From contig CANGGG010000027.1 of NCBI GenBank assembly GCA_947453415.1, forward strand, positions 1 through 38,694: 38,694 nt of DNA, read 5' to 3'. Shown in pieces: positions 1-38,694 of this stretch. The position numbers and the translations under genes are program-made. The notes beneath the pieces were generated by a model, which was not told the origin of the DNA, ran no database searches, and saw only the letters and a program-made list of their open reading frames with translations. The stretch comes from Bacteroidota bacterium (GTDB taxonomy: Bacteria; Bacteroidota; Bacteroidia; UKL13-3). Each line of letters begins with the position of its first letter. Position 1 is the first letter of the stretch.

Positions 1-3000
1 AGCATTGTTTTTATCATCTGTTAAATCTATTTCATTTGGATTAAATGTTGAAGATGGAAAAACAAAATGTTCATTTTGTTTCATTGAAAACAAAAAAGTC
101 CAACCTATATCACTATTAAATTCTTTATTTATAATAGGTAAATTTTGTCTTGCCCTCTCTACAGCTTCAAAAAACGAAACAACATTATCCTGTAAATTTC
201 CATCTGAATCACGATAAATAGCTAAATGGTGGTTGTTTCCAGTACTAATAAAATCAACAGGTACTTTATTTCCATTTATATCTAAAATATCTTTACCTAA
301 ATTGTCTTTTTTAGTATGTAGCGAGGTTGCACTTTTAACACCACTAATTGAAACCCTTTTTAAAGCAATTCCCTTCGATTTATTTTGCCAAATAGGATTT
401 TTATCCAAATTAGAAAAAGCCTCTTTAGCATTGCCATTAAACTCATTTAGCCTATTTTGTAATATGCTCCTAATTGCAACATCTATTACTTTATCAACTT
501 TTAAATCAGGTGTAATTTCTTTCCTTATGGTAAAATCATTTTCAAACCAAACTAATTTAACTTTTTCAGGTACTTTAATGGTTTTGTTTACATCTAAATA
601 AATTGGATTTTTTTCCAAAGAATTTTTACCAGTAAATGCTTTTTTTGCATCATTATCAAATTCTTTTAAACGATTTAATAACGCTTCTCTAATTTTGATT
701 TTAGATACTAGCAAAATAGTTTCTAAGGTAAACTTAGCGCTTACTTTTTCCTCTTTAGTTTCATAACGATTTATTTTACTATAAACTGTTTCTTTGTGCA
801 ATTGTCCTCTTGGTGTTAATTCAATTACACTTTTTAAACCATTAGTTGTTTTAATAGTATTTTTATTTTTTGTAACAACTTTATTTTTGGCTTTGTTAGA
901 TACCAATATGTTTTCTAAATGTTCTTTTGCCTCTGTTCTAAAACTCTGAATTGGTAATTTGAATTTTCGTTTTTTATTGCCATCATCATCAATTGATATA
1001 TAAGTTTCTTTTTGCTCTATAGCATATATTTCTTTACCCAACTTATCTTCTTTTCTACGTGCATTTAAATTATTCAGATATTGAATATGGCTATGTTTTG
1101 TGAATGCTATTGTTAATGCGTCCATTGCGTGATGTCTGTGGTCATTTCTTTTTGACCAATCAACTATCCTTTCTTTTTTGCTACCATCTTTTTTAGATAT
1201 GGTTTCTGTTAAACCTAATTTCTTATATTTATCAAAGTTTAATTCTTGCATTATATTTACTAAATCCCAATCTTCTCTCAGTCTATCAGTAACACTACCT
1301 GATGTTGAAATAACTGTTTTGCTTATAGTAAGCAACATTTGTTTAGCTTTTTTAGCTATATATTGAGTATCTCTTAAATCTCTTTCTATAAATCCTTTAC
1401 CAAGTTCTATTTCCCTCAACAAAAGTTTTTTATATTTTGCTTTGTTAATTCCTTCTTCAGAATTCTTTTGATTAATTTGAAATAGCATTTCTACTCTTGC
1501 TAGGTAATCAGACATATTATTTTTTCCAAAATAATCTTCCATAAAATCTATTGCGCATCTATCCCTTTTCTCTAAATTTTCCTGTCTTAAACAAAGAGTT
1601 TTATTAGAAAAACTATCATCAAATAATTTTGCTTTAGGAATAATATGTTCAATATCAAATTCCTTTGTAAATAATTTTTCTCTTGATACGTAGGTATTAG
1701 AATATATTGTTTTATATCCATTATTTTTTAATTCTTGATAAAGTTTATATCTTATTATATCATTTCTAGTAGGATTTAAAATTCCATCTTCATTAATTAA
1801 AATTTTTCTTATATTTTCGTGATTATCTTTCGCCTTATTTATTTGAGAAGTCATTTCCTCACGCTCCTTATTATTCTTTTTTAGTTCACGTGCTAACTCT
1901 ATTCTTATTTCATCTGGCTTACCTAATTGTGGGTCATTTATTATTGAATTTACCACATTTACCATTTGATTTAATATTTTTTCCACTACTGGATTTCTCA
2001 AACTGTTTTTAGCAAGAATTTCAAGTTTATCATTTAAAATTCTACTATCATTTTCTTCTTTCGTCAAATATGAAGAATGATTATACTTTGCCATTTCACA
2101 TGCTTCACTGTAATTACTTTCTTTAATAAATGGAAATATTTTACGAATTGCCTTCGCACTCAAGCTCCCATAATCTTGGGAGAAACTAATATTTGCTAAT
2201 ATTTTAGCAAATTCTAGTTTGAAACCAAATTTTAAAAAAAGTAATGTATATAATTTTTCATTGCCAGAATTTGAGTTGTCCTCTTCATATGAATGCAATA
2301 AATGCCATAATTGATAACTTAATTGTTTTTCAAATGATTTACCCTCTAATTCGCTATCAAATGTTAAAATTTCAATATTTATATTTTGAGATTCAAAAAA
2401 GATTTTGATTATCGAAATAATTTCGATAGGACTTTTATTTAACCAATCTATTTCTTCATGACCTTCCAATTCCATCATTTTAAAATAAGATTCAAATAGG
2501 GCAAAATTTGTTCTATTACCTTCAAGTATTTTATAATTTAAATCCCATTCATTAGTTTTATAACCAAGTATTTTTAATACATCATTTTTAGATAAATTGC
2601 CTTTGATATTTAAATGATTAAATAACTCATTTTTAGCTTCTAAATCAAAACTACTTTCTTCATTTGTTTCTTTATTCTTAGCTAATAAATGACCTAAATT
2701 TTGCCAAATTTTAAATTCCTGAAATAATGGAGATGATTTAGGAGCAACCTTATAACCAATGGTTCTTTTTATTAGTTTACCATTTTCTATACTTTCAATT
2801 TCCTTACACTCTAATTCACAGTTAGCAACTAATCCTTTTTGAGATTTAAGTTTACGTTGATAAAAAATAATTACATCACGTATTTCTACTTTTAATTCTT
2901 TTGTAAGTTCGCTATAAAACTGTGCTTGAGTTTCCCAAATAGTTTCAAATTCGTCAAGATAATCTTGACGATAAAATACTTGGTTTTTAGTTTTTGAATG

Positions 3001-3951
3001 GGAGTTCTTTCTTAAAGATTTATATAAATATTGACCAATAGTCTCTTTATTGAAATACAATTCTTTACTTCTATCACTTATTGCACCTAAATAACCACTT
3101 GAATTATTTATATTGTTATTAATTTCAGTTATAACATAAGCTAACTGTTCTTTTGACAATTCTTGATTAAAAGCAATGCTACGCCATTCACTGGCGACTA
3201 ATTTTTTTTCTTCTCTAGTCCCTTTTATTTCTGCAATATTAAACTTAAAAGTGGTCCAAAATATAGCAGCAGTAGCCCTTTGTCCTTTACCATCAATTAA
3301 CTTTCTAAAATCATCGGTTAATATTTCTTCATGATACTGTTTTTGAAAGTTCCAAATAATATCTAATTCATTTTTTAAATCAGAGCGGTAAAAATCAGGC
3401 AGGAATTTTTTTCCTTCTTGCAATAAACTAAAACATAATTGTCCTGGTGTTATATTTTCATCATAAAGTTTTTTGGCAATAGCCATTCCATCAATTATTG
3501 AGCCCTCATCTTCATTTTTTGCTTTTCTACTACTTTTATAACCTCGTTTCTTATTTATCATTAATAAAATACGTGCAAAATCTTCCTTATTTATTTTTTC
3601 AGTTGCCGCTTTAGATCTTAATTTATAAGTAGAATGAGTACTTTGTTTTTCAATTTCTGCTAGAGGAACACCTGGATTTATAATATTTGACTTTAAAAGT
3701 ATTTCAATTAAGTTTTCTCTTCTTAATTTAAATCTTTGCAAATTTCTCCTTGCACCTCTTTTAAGAGTTCTATCTTCATTTACTGAAATTGGCTTTCCTT
3801 TTTCAAAATTAGTTTGTTCATCAGTTGAGAGAGGATTTACTCTAACTCCCACTCTTTCAATAGAGGATTTTTCTTCTGAGTTTTCAGCTTCTTTAACAAA
3901 AGCCCAACCAATTGATGTTGTTCCTAAATCTAAACCAAGTATTTTTTTCAT
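1..3951 (-). CDS. cas9: Type II (II-C-like) CRISPR effector nuclease Cas9, C-terminus cut by window edge
   Basis: RNA-guided DNA endonuclease. The frame opens at an ATG (3951-3949) and stays open for 1317 codons to position 1, so the C-terminus is missing. RuvC-I is at the N-terminus (GLDLGTTSIGW, D8). An Arg-rich bridge helix follows at about residues 61-80 (RTLKRGARRNLQRF). RuvC-II is IRIELAREL with E685. The HNH domain is DIEHIIPKA with H769, and N792 sits 23 residues later as in SpCas9 H840/N863. RuvC-III is DHRHHAMDAL with H941 and D944. All catalytic residues are therefore intact and the nuclease is probably active. The large size fits Bacteroidota II-C proteins. The C-terminal part holds a repeated segment of about 33 residues (1086-1120 and 1160-1190). 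A predicted tracrRNA lies directly upstream on the other strand. Subtype is inferred from sequence character; cas1/cas2 are not visible. Confidence 0.97.
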   Translation of the reverse strand, partial: MKKILGLDLGTTSIGWAFVKEAENSEEKSSIERVGVRVNPLSTDEQTNFEKGKPISVNEDRTLKRGARRNLQRFKLRRENLIEILLKSNIINPGVPLAEIEKQSTHSTYKLRSKAATEKINKEDFARILLMINKKRGYKSSRKAKNEDEGSIIDGMAIAKKLYDENITPGQLCFSLLQEGKKFLPDFYRSDLKNELDIIWNFQKQYHEEILTDDFRKLIDGKGQRATAAIFWTTFKFNIAEIKGTREEKKLVASEWRSIAFNQELSKEQLAYVITEINNNINNSSGYLGAISDRSKELYFNKETIGQYLYKSLRKNSHSKTKNQVFYRQDYLDEFETIWETQAQFYSELTKELKVEIRDVIIFYQRKLKSQKGLVANCELECKEIESIENGKLIKRTIGYKVAPKSSPLFQEFKIWQNLGHLLAKNKETNEESSFDLEAKNELFNHLNIKGNLSKNDVLKILGYKTNEWDLNYKILEGNRTNFALFESYFKMMELEGHEEIDWLNKSPIEIISIIKIFFESQNINIEILTFDSELEGKSFEKQLSYQLWHLLHSYEEDNSNSGNEKLYTLLFLKFGFKLEFAKILANISFSQDYGSLSAKAIRKIFPFIKESNYSEACEMAKYNHSSYLTKEENDSRILNDKLEILAKNSLRNPVVEKILNQMVNVVNSIINDPQLGKPDEIRIELARELKKNNKEREEMTSQINKAKDNHENIRKILINEDGILNPTRNDIIRYKLYQELKNNGYKTIYSNTYVSREKLFTKEFDIEHIIPKAKLFDDSFSNKTLCLRQENLEKRDRCAIDFMEDYFGKNNMSDYLARVEMLFQINQKNSEEGINKAKYKKLLLREIELGKGFIERDLRDTQYIAKKAKQMLLTISKTVISTSGSVTDRLREDWDLVNIMQELNFDKYKKLGLTETISKKDGSKKERIVDWSKRNDHRHHAMDALTIAFTKHSHIQYLNNLNARRKEDKLGKEIYAIEQKETYISIDDDGNKKRKFKLPIQSFRTEAKEHLENILVSNKAKNKVVTKNKNTIKTTNGLKSVIELTPRGQLHKETVYSKINRYETKEEKVSAKFTLETILLVSKIKIREALLNRLKEFDNDAKKAFTGKNSLEKNPIYLDVNKTIKVPEKVKLVWFENDFTIRKEITPDLKVDKVIDVAIRSILQNRLNEFNGNAKEAFSNLDKNPIWQNKSKGIALKRVSISGVKSATSLHTKKDNLGKDILDINGNKVPVDFISTGNNHHLAIYRDSDGNLQDNVVSFFEAVERARQNLPIINKEFNSDIGWTFLFSMKQNEHFVFPSSTFNPNEIDLTDDKNNA

Positions 3952-3969
3952 TTTTATAAATTTTTATTC

Positions 3970-3999
3970 TTGTAATTATAATTTTATTATTTACTATTG
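3970..3999 (+). promoter_or_regulatory. Predicted tracrRNA promoter (Bacteroidota -33/-7 type)
   Basis: TTG at 3970-3972 and TACTATTG at 3992-3999 are separated by 19 nt. This matches the Bacteroidota layout of a -33 TTG and a -7 TAnnTTTG box, with one mismatch (A for T) in the -7 box. Transcription would start near 4004-4006, at the head of the predicted anti-repeat. Inference from motif and spacing only. Confidence 0.5.
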
Positions 4000-4003
4000 C
4001 ACT

Positions 4004-4088
4004 ACAATAATTGAAGCAAATCACAATAAGGATTATTCCGTTGTGAAAACATTAAGTTGCCCTCGACTTTAAACGGGGGCTTTTTTTT
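4004..4088 (+). ncRNA. Predicted tracrRNA for Cas9
   Basis: About 85 nt, divergent from cas9. The 5' part, up to 4026, is the likely anti-repeat (contains TTGAAGCAAATCACAA). CACAA (4022-4026) can pair with TTGTG (4041-4045) around an inner GGA/TCC stem (4030-4032 with 4037-4039, loop TTAT). A short linker (AAAACATTAAGTT) leads to a rho-independent terminator: GCCCTCG (4059-4065) pairs with CGGGGGC (4074-4080), one T-G wobble, followed by eight T's. Position beside cas9, structure and terminator agree with II-C tracrRNAs. The matching CRISPR repeat should contain TTGTGATTTGCTTCAA. No array is in the window, so the pairing cannot be confirmed here. Confidence 0.8.
4059..4088 (+). terminator. 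Rho-independent terminator of the tracrRNA
   Basis: Seven-base-pair stem GCCCTCG/CGGGGGC with loop ACTTTAAA, followed by T8 at 4081-4088. It is the only G+C-rich hairpin in this otherwise AT-rich spacer. Confidence 0.85.
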
Positions 4089-4176
4089 GTTCAAATTTAT
4101 CTTAATAATTATTAATAGCAATTATTAAATTTTATAATAATTGGTATTCTATTATTTTTTTATTTCTCTTCTTAAA

Positions 4177-5106
4177 TTATTTTTCCAATTGAGTATTAGC
4201 CATTTTATTGTTGGCGTCTAGCTGGCTAACAAAGTTTTTTAAATGTGCTAAAAACTCTTCAGAACCTAATATTTTTATCTCGTCAAGTAAGCCCAATACA
4301 AAGCGGGTGATGGGTTTCGGGTCGTTTACTTCTAATATTAATCGATAGGTTTTATTCTTATGATCAAGTTTAATAAATGGAACAACCATGGGGTAATCTT
4401 CTTTCAAAATCACATAAGCCCTCAGGTTTAACATTAAATCCACTTTTATTTTTTTGTTGTCAATATTGGCAAAGCCAAAGGCATCAGGTTTTTCAAAATG
4501 ATGAAATCCTGCATATTCAAAACTCTTATCGGTAACTAATACCGCACTCATTCTTTCAACCGAAAAAAACTTGTTTTGTTGGCTTGCTATTTCATACGCA
4601 CAAAGCATTTGGTAATTATTGGTAAACTGAATGGGTTCAATGATTCTATTACTTATGTTATTGGAATTAGCAGAAAAATATTTTTGCAAAACCACCTGTT
4701 TTTGTTGCTGAATGGCATCATTGATCTGTGCTACCATTTTACCATTATTTGCATTTATCATATGTTTCATCTCCATATCTAATTCTGATTTTACAAATAG
4801 CTTTTTGATAATCCCCTCTTTTAAAACACTGCTTTTAGCACTGCTTAACAACAACTCTTTTATTAGCTGAGCTTCTTCCATGGTAAAGTATTCATTGGCA
4901 CCTTCGTCATCATGTTTAATATAATATTTATTGTTTTTGTCTTTGTGTACATCAAAGCCAATTTCATTAATCAAATCAATGTATCTATAAACTGTACGTT
5001 CAGTCAAATCAATCATTAAAGCAATGTTTCTTGCAGATTTTGCAGGGGCTTTCTTTAACAAAGCAATAAGTTTGAATACCCTTAATATTTTATGTTGATT
5101 GAGCAT
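4177..5106 (-). CDS. HTH and WYL-domain transcriptional regulator
   Basis: 309-residue regulator. An N-terminal winged helix-turn-helix of DeoR/YafY type covers about residues 5-60 (ARNIALMIDLTERTVYRYI). A WYL-like ligand-sensing domain lies in the second half (around EPIQFTNNYQMLCAYE and FFSVERMSAV), where the eponymous W-Y-L is replaced by YQML, so it is a divergent member. The C-terminal part (RLILEVNDPKPITRFVLGLLDEIKILG) fits the WCX extension. I chose the ATG at 5106; a TTG at 5127 in the same frame adds seven residues with no support. It lies upstream of cas9 in the same direction, with the tracrRNA between on the other strand. WYL proteins are known regulators of some CRISPR-Cas loci, so a regulatory role here is plausible but unproven. 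Confidence 0.9.
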   Translation of the reverse strand: MLNQHKILRVFKLIALLKKAPAKSARNIALMIDLTERTVYRYIDLINEIGFDVHKDKNNKYYIKHDDEGANEYFTMEEAQLIKELLLSSAKSSVLKEGIIKKLFVKSELDMEMKHMINANNGKMVAQINDAIQQQKQVVLQKYFSANSNNISNRIIEPIQFTNNYQMLCAYEIASQQNKFFSVERMSAVLVTDKSFEYAGFHHFEKPDAFGFANIDNKKIKVDLMLNLRAYVILKEDYPMVVPFIKLDHKNKTYRLILEVNDPKPITRFVLGLLDEIKILGSEEFLAHLKNFVSQLDANNKMANTQLEK

Positions 5107-5296
5107 AATTAAAAAATAATTCGACAAATAAGGACAATAAAAATAGAAGCACCAAAGGATTGACCTTAGTTGACAATAAATAATATTCTCTTTGCATACT
5201 AATAAAAATGTGGAGTTCGGAACCTACTCTAAAAACTGGGCGTAATCTGAAAATTAAATGAGTAATGTAAATAAAAATAAATAATTTTTTAAAAAT

Positions 5297-29516: not shown

Positions 29517-29604
29517 TGGTGCGAAAGTAATGTAGAATTGTTAAATTGTTATATTGTTGATTGGTTAATAAGTTGATTTGGATTTGTGTTTTGGGAAAAT
29601 TCGT

Positions 29605-29643
29605 TTTGCCCACTGCCTCCCTCGGCAAGCTCAGGATGACAAC
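29605..29643 (+). repeat. TCATCCTGAG-family intergenic module
   Basis: Read on the minus strand, GTCATCCTGAGCTTGCCGAG followed by GGAGGCAGTGGG. It is a variant of the copy at 9869-9890. In both places the heptamer array begins within a few bases on the TCATCC side. Confidence 0.7.
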
Positions 29644-29646
29644 ATT

Positions 29647-29877
29647 TCCCAACTCTCATCTCTCATCTCTCATCTCTCATCTCTCATCTCTCATCTCCCA
29701 TCTCTCATCTCCCATCTCTCAACTCTCATCTCCCATCTCTCAACTCTCATCTCCCATCTCTCAACTCTCATCTCTCATCTCTCAACTCTCATCTCTCATC
29801 TCTCATCTCCCATCTCTCATTTCTCAACCCTCATCTCCCATTTATCATCTCCCAGTGCTAATTTCTCACTTCATAAT
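29647..29877 (+). repeat. Heptamer minisatellite, locus B (33 units)
   Basis: Units of seven bases, consensus TCTCATC with TCCCATC and TCTCAAC variants, keep perfect phase for 25 units (29647-29821) and then decay over about 8 more. Because 7 is not a multiple of 3, every 21 bases the reading phase repeats, so two long frames stay open; these are not genes. The same units occur at 9759-9856 and 9973-10000 on the other strand. Confidence 0.92.
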
Positions 29878-29887
29878 TAAAACTTAT

Positions 29888-29995
29888 ATCCATGTTGTTT
29901 ATAAGGAAAGAAGACTGTGTCAGTTTACCAACTGATGCTTGCAGCATGACGATTGATGGAGGTTTTGCTCATTGCCTCTCGATATATCGGGAGAT
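29888..29995 (+). repeat. Dispersed hairpin element, copy 3
   Basis: Contains TCCATGTTGTTTATAAGGAA, then GACTGTGTCAGTTTACCAAC and TGATGCTTGCAGCATGACGA, then TTTTGCTCATTGCC and a TCTCGATATATCGGGA palindrome (29977-29992). It directly follows the heptamer array. Confidence 0.88.
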
Positions 29996-33920: not shown

Positions 33921-36293
33921 TTAAAATTTTCTAATGGCACGAACCCTGTATAAACTTGTTTTGGTTAATCCTGTGGATGTTCCGAGACTTCCATTGCTAA
34001 AATCCAAAGCCCTTGCATTTGTGCTTGACACCTCTGAGGAACTCCAATATGGAACAGTTGAAAATGTTGTAACAGTTGCAACTCTATTTAAGTATAACTG
34101 GTTTAACTCATTTAAAGATGGTAAAAACCAATCTGTATAGCCGCCTCCGTTATGTGCCCTTGCTAAGCCTGCAGCATAAGAGGTTCCAGTACCTTGATTA
34201 AGTGTAATATTGATTGAGTTTATGTCTCCATATCCAATAGTGGTTACGGTATTATTAATTAACACAGAGGATACACTCCAACGTATTCCAGTCGTGGTTG
34301 TTTGATCAGCTGTCGCACAAATCAAACCGTGCTGCACATTGGCGTCATAGCCATAATCAGATGCTTGCAAAATATAGAATACCTTTCCGCCTTGAAATGC
34401 ATCACCAATTATTACATTAGTAGTAAAAGTAACTTCATTGCCATAGGCTGTTCCAACAGAATTTGTGGCATAAGCTCGAACGTAATACTTGGTACCTCGG
34501 GCTAGTGGAGAAAAAAGTGTTGAAAATGAGCCAGTACCACTCCCAACAGAAGTACTATTTAATGTGTATACAGGATTTGGGCTAGTACTCCAACAAATAC
34601 CTTTAATAGTTACTGCTGAACCGCCATCACTGGTAACATTGCCTCCACAACCTGCTGATGTCGTTGTTATATTTGTAACTGCATTTGTAGTTAGTATGGG
34701 TAAATCTGCGCCAGTAGTGCTGAATTGCACTGCAATACCATAACCAGTTCCAACTGAGTTGGTGGCATAAGCACGAACATAATAGGTGGCACCAGCTGTA
34801 AGGCCAGTTAATGAACTTGTAAAATTCCCTGTTCCAGTTCCATCTGATGTTTTAGTATTTGAAATGGTAGGATTTGGAGTGGTACTCCAACAAACACCTT
34901 TAGCTGTTATAGTTGAACCACCAGTACTTGAAATAGTGCCACCACTACTCGCAGTGAATTTTGTGATATTGGAAATGGATTGTGTAGTTAAAACAGGAAC
35001 ACTTGCAGCACCCGTGGCGAATTGTTCTGAATTGCCATAAACAGTTCCAACAGAATTGGTGGCATAAGCACGAACATAATAGGTAACACCAGCTGTAAGG
35101 CCTGTTAAATTACTTGTAAAACTCCCTGTTCCAGTTCCATCTGTTGTTTTAGAATTTGAAATGGTAGGATTTGTACTTGTACTCCAACAAACACCACGTG
35201 TAGTTACTGCTGCGCCTCCATCACTCGTAATATTACCACCACTTGTTGCTGATGTTTGTGTTATGTTAGAAATGACAGACGTTGATGATAATGTGGGTAA
35301 ATTTGGAGGTAGTGTTTTAAATATAATTTCATTGCCATAACTAGTTCCAACCTTATTGCTGGCATATGCACGAACATAATAGGTAACATCAATCGTAAGG
35401 CCTGATAAATTACTTATAAAACTCCCCGTTCCACTACCATTTGTTGTTATAGAATTTAAAATAGTAGGATTTGAACTTGTGCTCCAGCAAATACCACGCG
35501 CTGTTACCGTTGCACCTCCATCACTAGAAATAGTACCTCCACTTATAGCCGCTGTTTGTGATATGCTAGACATAGCAGATGTAGTTATAATAGGTTTAGT
35601 TGCCGATGTGGTGGTAAATGAAATGGTATTTCCATAGCTTGTTCCTGAAGAATTGGTTGCATAGGCGCGAGCATAATATAATACGTTTTCTGTTAAGTTT
35701 ATAATTTTACTTGAGAATATTCCACTGCCAACGCTATCGCTTGTTTTGTTATTGCTAATGGTTGGATCAATGCTTGTGTTCCAGCAAACACCACGCGCAG
35801 TTATTTCAGAACCGCCATCATTTGTTATGTTCCCTCCACTTACAGCACTAGCTGCAGTTAATTCAGATACATCGGCAGTTGTTAATTGTGCTAAACCTTT
35901 TGTTGTAAATGATATTGTTTTTCCATAACCAGTACCTTCAATATTAGTAGCATAAGCACGAACATAATATTTGGTATTGCTTGTTAATGTATTAATTTCA
36001 CTACTAAATTGACCAATATCAAGAATACCATCAGTTGTAATATTATCATCTATTGTAGGGTTATCATTACTACCCCAGCAAACTCCACTTTTGGTTACTG
36101 GAGTGCCACCGTTGCTAGTAATATCGCCTGAAACAGTTGCTGTCGTTTCTGTGAAAGTTAATAATTCATTTGTAATTGATGGAACACTCCATGGAGAAGC
36201 AATTGAATTTTTCTTACAACTTTGAATGAATAGCAACGACATGATTGCTATTATAATTGATGACCCAATCCAAATTTTTCTTTTAGTTATCAT
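33921..36293 (-). CDS. Surface lipoprotein with six GVCW repeats and DUF1566-like domain
   Basis: 790 residues. Lipobox Cys26 (IMSLLFIQSCKK). Six FN3-like repeats of about 95-100 residues, each with a GVCW or GICW motif (one GVCWNTS), PTI and YYVRAYATN or close variants. A DUF1566/Lcl-like C-terminal domain (GGKVFYILQASDYG, HGLICATADQ, NGGGYTDWFLPSLNEL, YRVRAIRKF) follows. Larger paralogue of the preceding gene; the difference is three extra repeats. Repeat number may vary by recombination between similar 285-base units. Ligand unknown. Confidence 0.9.
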   Translation of the reverse strand: MITKRKIWIGSSIIIAIMSLLFIQSCKKNSIASPWSVPSITNELLTFTETTATVSGDITSNGGTPVTKSGVCWGSNDNPTIDDNITTDGILDIGQFSSEINTLTSNTKYYVRAYATNIEGTGYGKTISFTTKGLAQLTTADVSELTAASAVSGGNITNDGGSEITARGVCWNTSIDPTISNNKTSDSVGSGIFSSKIINLTENVLYYARAYATNSSGTSYGNTISFTTTSATKPIITTSAMSSISQTAAISGGTISSDGGATVTARGICWSTSSNPTILNSITTNGSGTGSFISNLSGLTIDVTYYVRAYASNKVGTSYGNEIIFKTLPPNLPTLSSTSVISNITQTSATSGGNITSDGGAAVTTRGVCWSTSTNPTISNSKTTDGTGTGSFTSNLTGLTAGVTYYVRAYATNSVGTVYGNSEQFATGAASVPVLTTQSISNITKFTASSGGTISSTGGSTITAKGVCWSTTPNPTISNTKTSDGTGTGNFTSSLTGLTAGATYYVRAYATNSVGTGYGIAVQFSTTGADLPILTTNAVTNITTTSAGCGGNVTSDGGSAVTIKGICWSTSPNPVYTLNSTSVGSGTGSFSTLFSPLARGTKYYVRAYATNSVGTAYGNEVTFTTNVIIGDAFQGGKVFYILQASDYGYDANVQHGLICATADQTTTTGIRWSVSSVLINNTVTTIGYGDINSINITLNQGTGTSYAAGLARAHNGGGYTDWFLPSLNELNQLYLNRVATVTTFSTVPYWSSSEVSSTNARALDFSNGSLGTSTGLTKTSLYRVRAIRKF

Positions 36294-36640
36294 AGTTAGT
36301 TTTTTTATTATGTATCTATTTTGTTTATTTATCCTACTCTTACGGCTTTTCGGATTTCGCCCCCAAATGAAACTTTTTGGGAAAGTTGTTTTTTTAAATG
36401 TATTCTGAATGAATATTTATTATTTAGCAAATAAAAACAATGAAACTGAAATGGGGCTGCAGTGGACTGATTTTGAAATTATAATTTCATTAATCTTGCT
36501 ACTCAAAATTCAGTTTACTAATTCATGCGTTTGGTGTTTCCAATAATCTTTTTTAAGTTAAATTTTCTTTTGCCTCCAAAATATATCGGGAGTTCAAATA
36601 CTAATTATTAAAAACAAGCAGCATAGACAAACTAAACAAA
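36294..36640. other. Gene-free spacer
   Basis: No gene is supported on either strand. It has a CCCAAATGAAACTTTTTGGG hairpin-like stretch at about 36362-36381 and a half-decayed ATATATCGGGA palindrome remnant near 36576-36591 preceded by GCCTCC. The promoter of the six-repeat gene is probably here but I see no clear box. Confidence 0.6.
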
Positions 36641-36665
36641 AAAAGCTGCCCAATGAGCAGCTTTT
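36641..36665 (-). terminator. Terminator after the T9SS cargo gene
   Basis: AAAGCTGC-CCAATGA-GCAGCTTTT hairpin, 26 bases after the stop codon, within the 48-base stretch identical to 31161-31208. Confidence 0.9.
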
Positions 36666-36690
36666 ATTTGTTAACTTAGTTAGGTGTTTT

Positions 36691-38694
36691 TTATTCTTTC
36701 ACAAATTTAATTCTGCTTGTTTCACCCTCTTTTTGAATGCTTAAAATGTATGCACCGGTTTTAAGTTCATTCACTAAAACAGTATGTTCGTTAGAAACAT
36801 TTGTTACCGTTTCTTCCAACATTTTTCTTCCAAGCATATCGGTAATAATGATGTGCGCACCTTTCAGTTTTTGATTGGTGCTAATGATTAATTCATTGTT
36901 GGCAGGGTTAGGATAAACAGAAATATTATTTGAATTATTTATTTCGTTTATAATAGTTACTCCATCTTGTTTTATATTCAAAAATTTATTGATAGTACCT
37001 GCTGTTATAATTACATCTGCACTTCTTGCTCCACCGGTATTTGCTTGAATATTTAAGCTTAATATTTGATTTCCTGTTCCACTAATAGGTGTTAGCGTAA
37101 ACCAACTTGCAGGACTAGTTATCACCCAACTTCTATTACTTTGTAATTGAATGATTGTACTCGCTTGATTTAAATTAACCTTCACAGAATCTTTATCTAA
37201 CGATAATTGATCTGCAATTACTGGAGTACTATCTTGTGAAATATTAATGGTTTGAACTAAATTACCAGCAGTAAAAGTTATGCTAGCATATCTTGAAGTT
37301 GATGCTGTATTTGCTGTTACCGTTGCTGTTAAATTATCATTTCCATTGCCTGAATTTTTGCTTAAAGTTAACCATGTTTGATTTGAACTTACATTCCAAT
37401 TGGTGTTACTAAATAATGTTAATAGTTTATTTCCAACAATGTTTGTAAAATTCAAACTTGTAGGTGTAACATTTAAAGTAAAATTACTTATAGTTATATT
37501 TAAATAAATAGTATCTCCTTTACAGCCACTAGCATTTGTTTCTAAAACTTTAACTATTCCATTTCCCGGTGAATTATTCCATAAAATGGAAATTGAATTT
37601 GAGGACCCCCCACTTATAATACTTCCACTATTTACTATCCACATGTAATTTGAACCATTTGTATTTGTAACAGAATAATTTTGGGTAGTGTTTGGAAGCA
37701 CATTATTGATTCCATTTATAATGCTAGTACTTGGTATTGGATTTACAGTTACTGTTGTATTGGATGATGTAGATGAACAAGCAGCAGCATTTGATACAAT
37801 AACTGCATAATTTCCTGAATTTGTTGCTGTATAATTTGCAGCTGTTGAAGTACTAATATTTGTGCCATTTAATGTCCATTGGTAAGTTAATCCGGTTCCT
37901 GTATTTGCATTTAAAACCACACTACCTCCTTGGCAAAATGTTGTTGTGGTTGCAGGGGTAATTGATGCAGTTGGAATTGCATTGACTGTTACTGTTGTAT
38001 TTGCTGATGTGGCTGAACAAGCAGCAGCACTTGATACAATAACTGCATAATTTCCTGAAGTTGTTGCTGTATATGAAGCGGCTGTTGAACTGCTAATATT
38101 TGTTCCATTTAATGTCCATTGGTAGCTTAAACCAGTTCCTGTATTTGCATTTAAAACTACATTGCCTCCTTGGCAAAATGTTGTTGCTGTTGCAGGGGTT
38201 ATGATTGCCGTTGGAATTGGATTGACAGTTACTGTTGTATTGGATGATGTAGCTGAACAAGCAGCAGCATTTGATACAATAACTGCATAATTTCCTGAAT
38301 TTGTTACTGTATATGAAGCAGCTGTTGAACCGCTAAGATTTGTTCCATTTAATGTCCATTGGTAAGTTAAACCGGTTCCTGTATTTGCATTTAAAACTAC
38401 ATTAGCTCCTTGGCAAAATGTAGTTGTTGTTGCAGGTGTAATTATTGCTGTTGGAATTGCATTTACTGTTACTGTTGTGGCAGTTGATGTCACTGAACAA
38501 GCAGCAGCACTTGACACGATAACTGCATAATTTCCTGAAGTTGTTGCTGTATAAGAAGCTGCCGTTGATCCACTAATGTTTGTTCCATTTAAAGTCCATT
38601 GATAAGTTAATCCGGTTCCTGTATTTGCATTTAAAACCACATTGCCTCCTTGGCAAAATGTTGTTGCTGTTGCAGGGGTAATTGTTGCTGTTGG
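36691..38694 (-). CDS. T9SS cargo protein with Ig-like repeats, BACON-like domains and type A sorting domain; N-terminus cut by window edge
   Basis: 667 codons visible; the frame stays open through 38694, so the N-terminus lies to the right. From the edge: at least four near-identical 80-residue Ig-like repeats (TTFCQGGNVVLNANTGTGL, YQWTLNGTNI, SGNYAVIVS), then a region SNYMWIVNSGSIISGG, then two BACON-like units (TNWNVSSNQTWLTL and RSWVITSPASWFTL), and a C-terminal T9SS type A sorting domain (ISVYPNPANNELIIST, ITDMLGRKM, LKTGAYILSI, ending RIKFVKE). It would be exported through Sec, then by T9SS to the surface. Repeats may bind glycans or proteins. Confidence 0.93.
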   Translation of the reverse strand, partial: PTATITPATATTFCQGGNVVLNANTGTGLTYQWTLNGTNISGSTAASYTATTSGNYAVIVSSAAACSVTSTATTVTVNAIPTAIITPATTTTFCQGANVVLNANTGTGLTYQWTLNGTNLSGSTAASYTVTNSGNYAVIVSNAAACSATSSNTTVTVNPIPTAIITPATATTFCQGGNVVLNANTGTGLSYQWTLNGTNISSSTAASYTATTSGNYAVIVSSAAACSATSANTTVTVNAIPTASITPATTTTFCQGGSVVLNANTGTGLTYQWTLNGTNISTSTAANYTATNSGNYAVIVSNAAACSSTSSNTTVTVNPIPSTSIINGINNVLPNTTQNYSVTNTNGSNYMWIVNSGSIISGGSSNSISILWNNSPGNGIVKVLETNASGCKGDTIYLNITISNFTLNVTPTSLNFTNIVGNKLLTLFSNTNWNVSSNQTWLTLSKNSGNGNDNLTATVTANTASTSRYASITFTAGNLVQTINISQDSTPVIADQLSLDKDSVKVNLNQASTIIQLQSNRSWVITSPASWFTLTPISGTGNQILSLNIQANTGGARSADVIITAGTINKFLNIKQDGVTIINEINNSNNISVYPNPANNELIISTNQKLKGAHIIITDMLGRKMLEETVTNVSNEHTVLVNELKTGAYILSIQKEGETSRIKFVKE
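37731..38690 (-). repeat. Four tandem 240-bp coding repeats
   Basis: Repeat boundaries marked by TTGG(A/T)ATTG at 37731, 37971, 38211 and 38451, exactly 240 bases (80 codons) apart. They code for the Ig-like units of the T9SS cargo protein. The array probably continues past the window edge. Confidence 0.93.

Follow-up and report, generated by a model that had tools for sequence, protein, structure and literature searches.

The cas9 locus and its neighbourhood

The window, i.e. the whole stretch of 38,694 nt analysed here, is one contig (C27) of a Bacteroidota genome assembled in 107 contigs. It opens with cas9 on the reverse strand (1-3951), of which 1,317 codons are present and the 3′ end lies beyond the contig start. 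The gene was recognized by TIGR01865 (481.8 bits), by the Pfam domains RuvC_III and HNH_4, and by PADLOC as Cas9, and its product showed 68% identity to the closest relatives of its family; the open frames of the closest relatives comprise ~1,400 codons. Divergently from cas9, and ~50 bp upstream of its start codon, the forward strand carries a predicted tracrRNA gene of ~85 nt (4004-4088), its 5′ end being placed from promoter spacing and its 3′ end from the terminator; the same placement was observed in relatives. Farther on, a regulator with an HTH_11 domain (Pfam) and a WYL domain (PADLOC, 64.4 bits) is encoded on the reverse strand (4177-5127) and converges on the tracrRNA gene. PADLOC counts WYL proteins as CRISPR-associated. 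Among the loci compared, a WYL gene beside the tracrRNA was found only in one genome of the same genus (G040, locus L134), and the regulator is probably chromosomal context lying outside the CRISPR system.

No CRISPR array was found inside the window. At the end of another contig (C16), however, an array of 10 copies of the 47-nt repeat GTTGTGATTTGCTTTCAATTATTGTTCTTTTGAATATTGTAAATACT adjoins cas1 (TIGR03639, 279 bits; PADLOC Cas1_II) and cas2 (TIGR01573, 64 bits; PADLOC Cas2_II). The last T of the repeat precedes each spacer, the spacers are 29-31 nt long, and behind the array, along the same strand, come a G+C hairpin and its T-run, then cas1 and cas2. No further repeat copies, cas1 matches or cas2 matches were found in the genome, and the window carries its sole cas9. 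Since there is a single cas9, a single cas1, a single cas2 and a single set of repeats, both exclusion and pairing indicate that the array and the tracrRNA are cognate.

By its gene content (cas9, cas1 and cas2, without cas4), the locus would belong to type II-C. For cas4 (TIGR00372) no match was found in the genome, while control genomes gave matches; for csn2 (TIGR01866) there was no match in the genome, none in the control genomes either, and the gap after cas9 is unread. In the usual, though not defining, II-C order, transcription of the array runs counter to that of the cas operon (PMC3936727). This order, cas9-cas1-cas2-array with the repeats on the opposite strand, appeared in 53 loci, bearing in mind that the strand calls of the arrays in L050, L059, L062 and L098 are unreliable because of a GTTGTG-like sequence at both repeat ends. 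The C16 repeats, in contrast, share their strand with cas1 and cas2 and lie upstream of cas1, departing from the usual opposite-strand arrangement. The layout across the two contigs is a predicted one, as the contig end truncates cas9 and the junction falls between contigs. In members of the window's family (L020, L128, L129, L130, L138 and L139), the array lies behind cas9 and shares the strand of the cas genes.

Pairing between the anti-repeat and the CRISPR repeat

The anti-repeat was located at 4004-4027 of the forward strand, where it forms 24 bp with positions 1-25 of the C16 repeat, leaving one bulged T in the repeat, with a duplex energy of −28.7 kcal/mol. Among the 19,336 sites of 24 nt on both strands of the window, 4004-4027 was the best one (−28.2), and the next unrelated site reached −19.0. 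Both the stretch ATTGAAGCAAATCACAA and ACAATAATTGAAGCAAATCACAA, in the anti-repeat region, end at position 4026. An initial annotation, prepared from the letters of the window, had placed an anti-repeat at about 4004-4026 and proposed searching the full genome for an array whose repeat pairs with it, and such an array is indeed the one on C16. It had also predicted the repeat piece TTGTGATTTGCTTCAA, which was correct in all but one base, the real repeat TTGTGATTTGCTTTCAA having one extra T. This one-base bulge can be regarded as a recurring feature rather than a flaw, because the anti-repeat was one T shorter than the repeat in ~30 of 57 loci. In these 57 loci, whose arrays were readable, the repeat varied at position 8 (T, A or G) and at position 11 (G or C), and the anti-repeat followed these changes in 55.

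Conservation of the tracrRNA among Bacteroidota

Species genomes were scanned with a Cas9 alignment, which resulted in 80 named loci across Bacteroidota, in genera including Flavobacterium, Chryseobacterium, Pedobacter, Capnocytophaga, Algoriphagus and Prevotella. Nearly all of them presented the core AAGCAA(A/T)TCACAATAAGGATTATTCCGTTGTGAAAACATT near the cas9 start and on the strand opposite to cas9, and ~90 loci were found with this core so oriented. A covariance model (R1) built from the sequences of 74 relatives, with the window excluded, matched 4006-4096 with 90.6 bits and an E-value of 2.1e−18, while the second-best match within the window had an E-value of 1.6. The covariance search suggested in the initial annotation had this single hit in the whole genome, and strand, adjacency to cas9, pairing with the repeat and the covariance match all agree with its claim of a tracrRNA divergent from cas9. 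In an order-wide search, every strong match to the tracrRNA adjoined a cas9 match. Moreover, the fold of the 86-nt RNA was more stable than expected (z = −3.8), none of 200 shuffled sequences being equally stable.

Position, pairing, covariation, promoter and terminator, all read from sequence, say that the RNA is a type II tracrRNA. That it would instead be mainly a small regulatory RNA could be suspected from its sRNA-like build and from chance-level matches to sRNAs in Rfam, yet the pairing with the repeats of its own genome, the covariation with the repeats of relatives and the place beside cas9 leave this reading with hardly any probability. The tracrRNA is thus real but ordinary, given that near-identical RNAs adjoin cas9 throughout Bacteroidota. 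An Rfam search returned no family above threshold for it; the tracrRNA family RF02348, which is of the same functional class, scored 21.9 bits against a gathering score of 70, a chance-level match that leaves the Bacteroidota core outside the reach of that model. The covariance model and the set of 90 loci cover a tracrRNA class that Rfam left unmatched here. Furthermore, the exact string of the core was absent from the published papers searched.

Nexus, outer stem and terminator

Downstream of the anti-repeat, a nexus hairpin GGA-UUAU-UCC was found at 4030-4039 (forward strand); in 3 of the 74 sequences, both sides of an A-U pair had changed to give G-C. In the minimum free energy fold, this hairpin is enclosed by an extended stem UCACAAU/GUUGUGA (4021-4046, forward strand), the 5′ arm of which belongs to the anti-repeat. 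This stem contains CACAA (4022-4026) and TTGTG (4041-4045), with GGATTATTCC standing between them, and the linker AAAACATT separates TTGTG from the G+C stem of the terminator. The terminator consists of a stem-loop GCCCTCG...CGGGGGC (4059-4080, forward strand), with a stem of 7 bp including 6 G-C pairs, and a T8 run (4081-4088, forward strand). On 1.5 kb, 2 intrinsic terminators were found versus 0.7 expected, and this one has the stronger G+C stem. The G+C-rich terminator with T8 was among the named elements of 3970-4088, all of which were recovered in place or within a few bases.

A CACAA/TTGTG hairpin had also been proposed, and here the outcome was mixed: both arms are present and the free RNA folds in this way, but the stem is incompatible with the full repeat duplex and shows no two-sided compensatory change. 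CACAA is needed for pairing with the crRNA as well, so the stem is possible only in the free tracrRNA. When the RNA was folded together with the repeat, the CACAA/TTGTG stem was displaced, and the GGA/UCC nexus and the terminator were kept. One reading, compatible with the RNA being a tracrRNA, takes the stem as a functional switch, keeping the anti-repeat masked before a crRNA is at hand. The energy of the free fold (−22.2 kcal/mol), the loss of this pairing in the cofold and the near invariance of CACAA and TTGTG among the 74 relatives speak for such a switch. Two-sided change, however, was seen in 0 of the 7 pairs of the outer stem, where the 5′ side showed only G-U or U-G changes, and mismatches occurred in two sequences at an inner pair and in eight at the outermost pair. 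In addition, two Cas9-linked tracrRNAs of another Cas9 lineage (L153 and L155) keep the anti-repeat and have a different hairpin in place of TTGTG, and the conservation of CACAA is accounted for by repeat pairing alone. A switch is therefore unlikely, and the CACAA/TTGTG stem may at most be a fold of the free RNA, unsupported as a conserved functional structure.

Putative promoters of the tracrRNA and of the repeats

Upstream of the anti-repeat, the TTG, the 19-nt spacer and the box TACTATTG described in the initial annotation are present in the sequence. They correspond to a putative −33 box (3970-3972, forward strand), shared at the equal position by a relative of the same genus, and to a putative −7 box (3992-3999, forward strand), one base off the motif TAnnTTTG and identical in the same-genus locus L134. 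The strict TAnnTTTG appeared upstream of 62 of 90 tracrRNAs, with its end 9-27 nt ahead of CACAA, whereas it was seen 5.6 times in shuffled sequences and 3 times on the reverse strand. A generic sigma-70 scan gave 9 matches versus 9.2 in shuffles; a promoter of the sigma-70 type was accordingly set aside as not exceeding the shuffles, the Bacteroidota consensus being preferred. From the motif and its conservation, we infer that the tracrRNA has its own promoter. The position of the promoter box implies a start at or just inside the anti-repeat, so little trimming of the 5′ end would be needed.

The same motif was found within the repeats: 43 of 54 distinct repeats contained TAnnTTTG with at most one mismatch, versus 6.6 in shuffles, at 17-23 nt past a TTG at repeat positions 2-4. 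The C16 repeat presents TTCTTTTG at a spacing of 20 from TTG, with one mismatch to TAnnTTTG. Another candidate for the −7 box of the repeat, GAATATTG, was dropped in favour of TTCTTTTG, whose position at TTG+20 is conserved in relatives. The motif test favours the view that crRNAs probably start from promoters within each repeat, and agrees with the repeat-encoded promoters reported in F. columnare (PMC8092290) and F. psychrophilum (PMC10309648). Since the promoters of the tracrRNAs sit directly next to the anti-repeat, and the repeats have promoters of their own, these data suggest that both guide RNAs start close to their mature 5′ ends.

In the intergenic region between cas9 and the tracrRNA of other loci (L058, L060, L065, L068, L069, L075, L080, L093, L098 and L121), a palindrome, ACGG-N4-CCGT, closely precedes the tracrRNA promoter; its longer form TTACGG-N4-CCGTAA was present in 13 loci when mismatches were allowed. 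The strict palindrome appeared 10 times within 150 nt of a tracrRNA versus 8 times in 1.4 Mb elsewhere (~74-fold enriched). It is a possible operator of an unspecified regulator; ACGG-N4-CCGT was absent from the window.

Proposed mode of action

According to the model proposed here, the Bacteroidota-type promoter TTG-N19-TACTATTG would start an RNA at ~4004-4006, within the first bases of the anti-repeat, and crRNAs would start at promoters borne by the repeats. The anti-repeat would then pair with the 5′ part of every repeat (24 bp, one bulge), as sequence and covariation indicate. Behind it would come the nexus and the linker AAAACATT, and the G+C stem with T8 would terminate transcription. 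The CACAA/TTGTG stem, if formed, would belong to the free RNA and open on pairing with the crRNA. By homology, Cas9 would bind the tracrRNA:crRNA duplex and cut matching DNA. We infer that the tracrRNA is transcribed, processed and bound by Cas9 in this way.

Whether the tracrRNA could be a relic of a decayed locus, neither expressed nor used, was also considered. Degenerate copies are known in relatives, such as the second copy in L109 and a degenerate match in L157, and the genomes of the matches in L152 and L156 gave no cas9 match; moreover, cas9 is truncated at the contig boundary and the spacers lack a phage match. In the phage records, spacer targets amounted only to chance-level matches of 21-24 nt, so that activity in immunity is no more than presumed. 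Against a relic, all parts are intact (promoter boxes, a 24-bp anti-repeat matching its own array, nexus and terminator), the cas9 frame is open to the contig end, and cas1 and cas2 are intact, which makes decay very improbable. The segment 4004-4088 of the forward strand almost certainly encodes the tracrRNA of this Bacteroidota bacterium's CRISPR-Cas9 locus, which is type II-C-like, complete and probably functional. A prediction made from sequence alone was borne out almost fully, even as to the repeat letters of the array on C16. The result is a complete dual-RNA description (repeat, tracrRNA and promoters) for a Bacteroidota Cas9.

Comparison with known systems

The closest studied example, the tracrRNA of Fp2Cas9 from F. 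psychrophilum (PMC10309648, PMC12609912), is likewise encoded next to cas9, and its Bacteroidota II-C locus also contains cas1, cas2 and an array of repeats bearing TTG. This RNA has a short essential core as here, the comparison resting on the published descriptions. It functions as an RNA of 99 nt, of which nt 25-64 are the essential part (PMC12609912), and its promoter was left unresolved by the authors, whereas the tracrRNA of the window measures ~85 nt and has a visible promoter. By analogy, this essential part is consistent with a core and a dispensable 3′ hairpin in the tracrRNA of the window. In Riemerella anatipestifer CRISPR1 (PMC5006608), a putative tracrRNA anti-repeat TGAAAGCAATTCACAA lies upstream of cas9 and the repeat is 47 nt long, like in the window's system, but the published account is limited to a 16-nt anti-repeat and does not give the whole RNA, and its authors saw no promoter within the repeat. 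In Flavobacterium columnare (PMC8092290), a TTG in the repeat lies 33 bp upstream of each spacer, as in the repeat of the window's system, and crRNAs are transcribed from within the array, which is likewise predicted here; that locus has a putative type II-C tracrRNA, and parDE genes between cas9 and the array.

Proposed exchange of the 3′ hairpin

On the tree of 80 Cas9 proteins, the classes of the tracrRNA 3′ hairpin changed at least 29 times, the minimum possible being 4 and the shuffled mean 42.7. It is tentatively proposed, with somewhat less than even confidence, that Bacteroidota II-C tracrRNAs are modular, with a near-fixed anti-repeat/nexus core and a 3′ hairpin that is swapped time and again, apparently together with the replacement of cas9 at a fixed chromosomal site, so that old tails or entire tracrRNA fossils are left downstream.

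Several arrangements of duplicated parts were also observed. A second tail lies behind the first in L018 and L019, a second AAAACATT plus tail was found in L068 and L119, and a whole degenerate second tracrRNA lies directly behind the first in L109. Sequences resembling a tracrRNA, with no cas9 frame in the surrounding 3 kb, appeared in L152, L156 and L157; for two of these genomes, the initial search for cas9 had been negative. In addition, the same-genus locus L134 (G040) resembles 3881-5204 of the window in site, promoter, core and WYL gene, while its cas9 belongs to a different lineage (the best matched part has 35% identity) and the 3′ hairpin of its tracrRNA differs. This likeness suggests that cas9 and parts of the tracrRNA were replaced at a fixed site.

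Other features of the window

Elsewhere in the window, the reverse strand of 33921-38694 presents long frames with near-identical internal repeats, e.g. NTGTGLTYQWTLNGTNISGSTAASYTAT, which look like surface or secreted proteins from their sequence. Finally, overlapping frames rich in SLISHLSS were found on the forward strand at 29561-29935, and these point to short DNA units repeated in tandem in an intergenic stretch.
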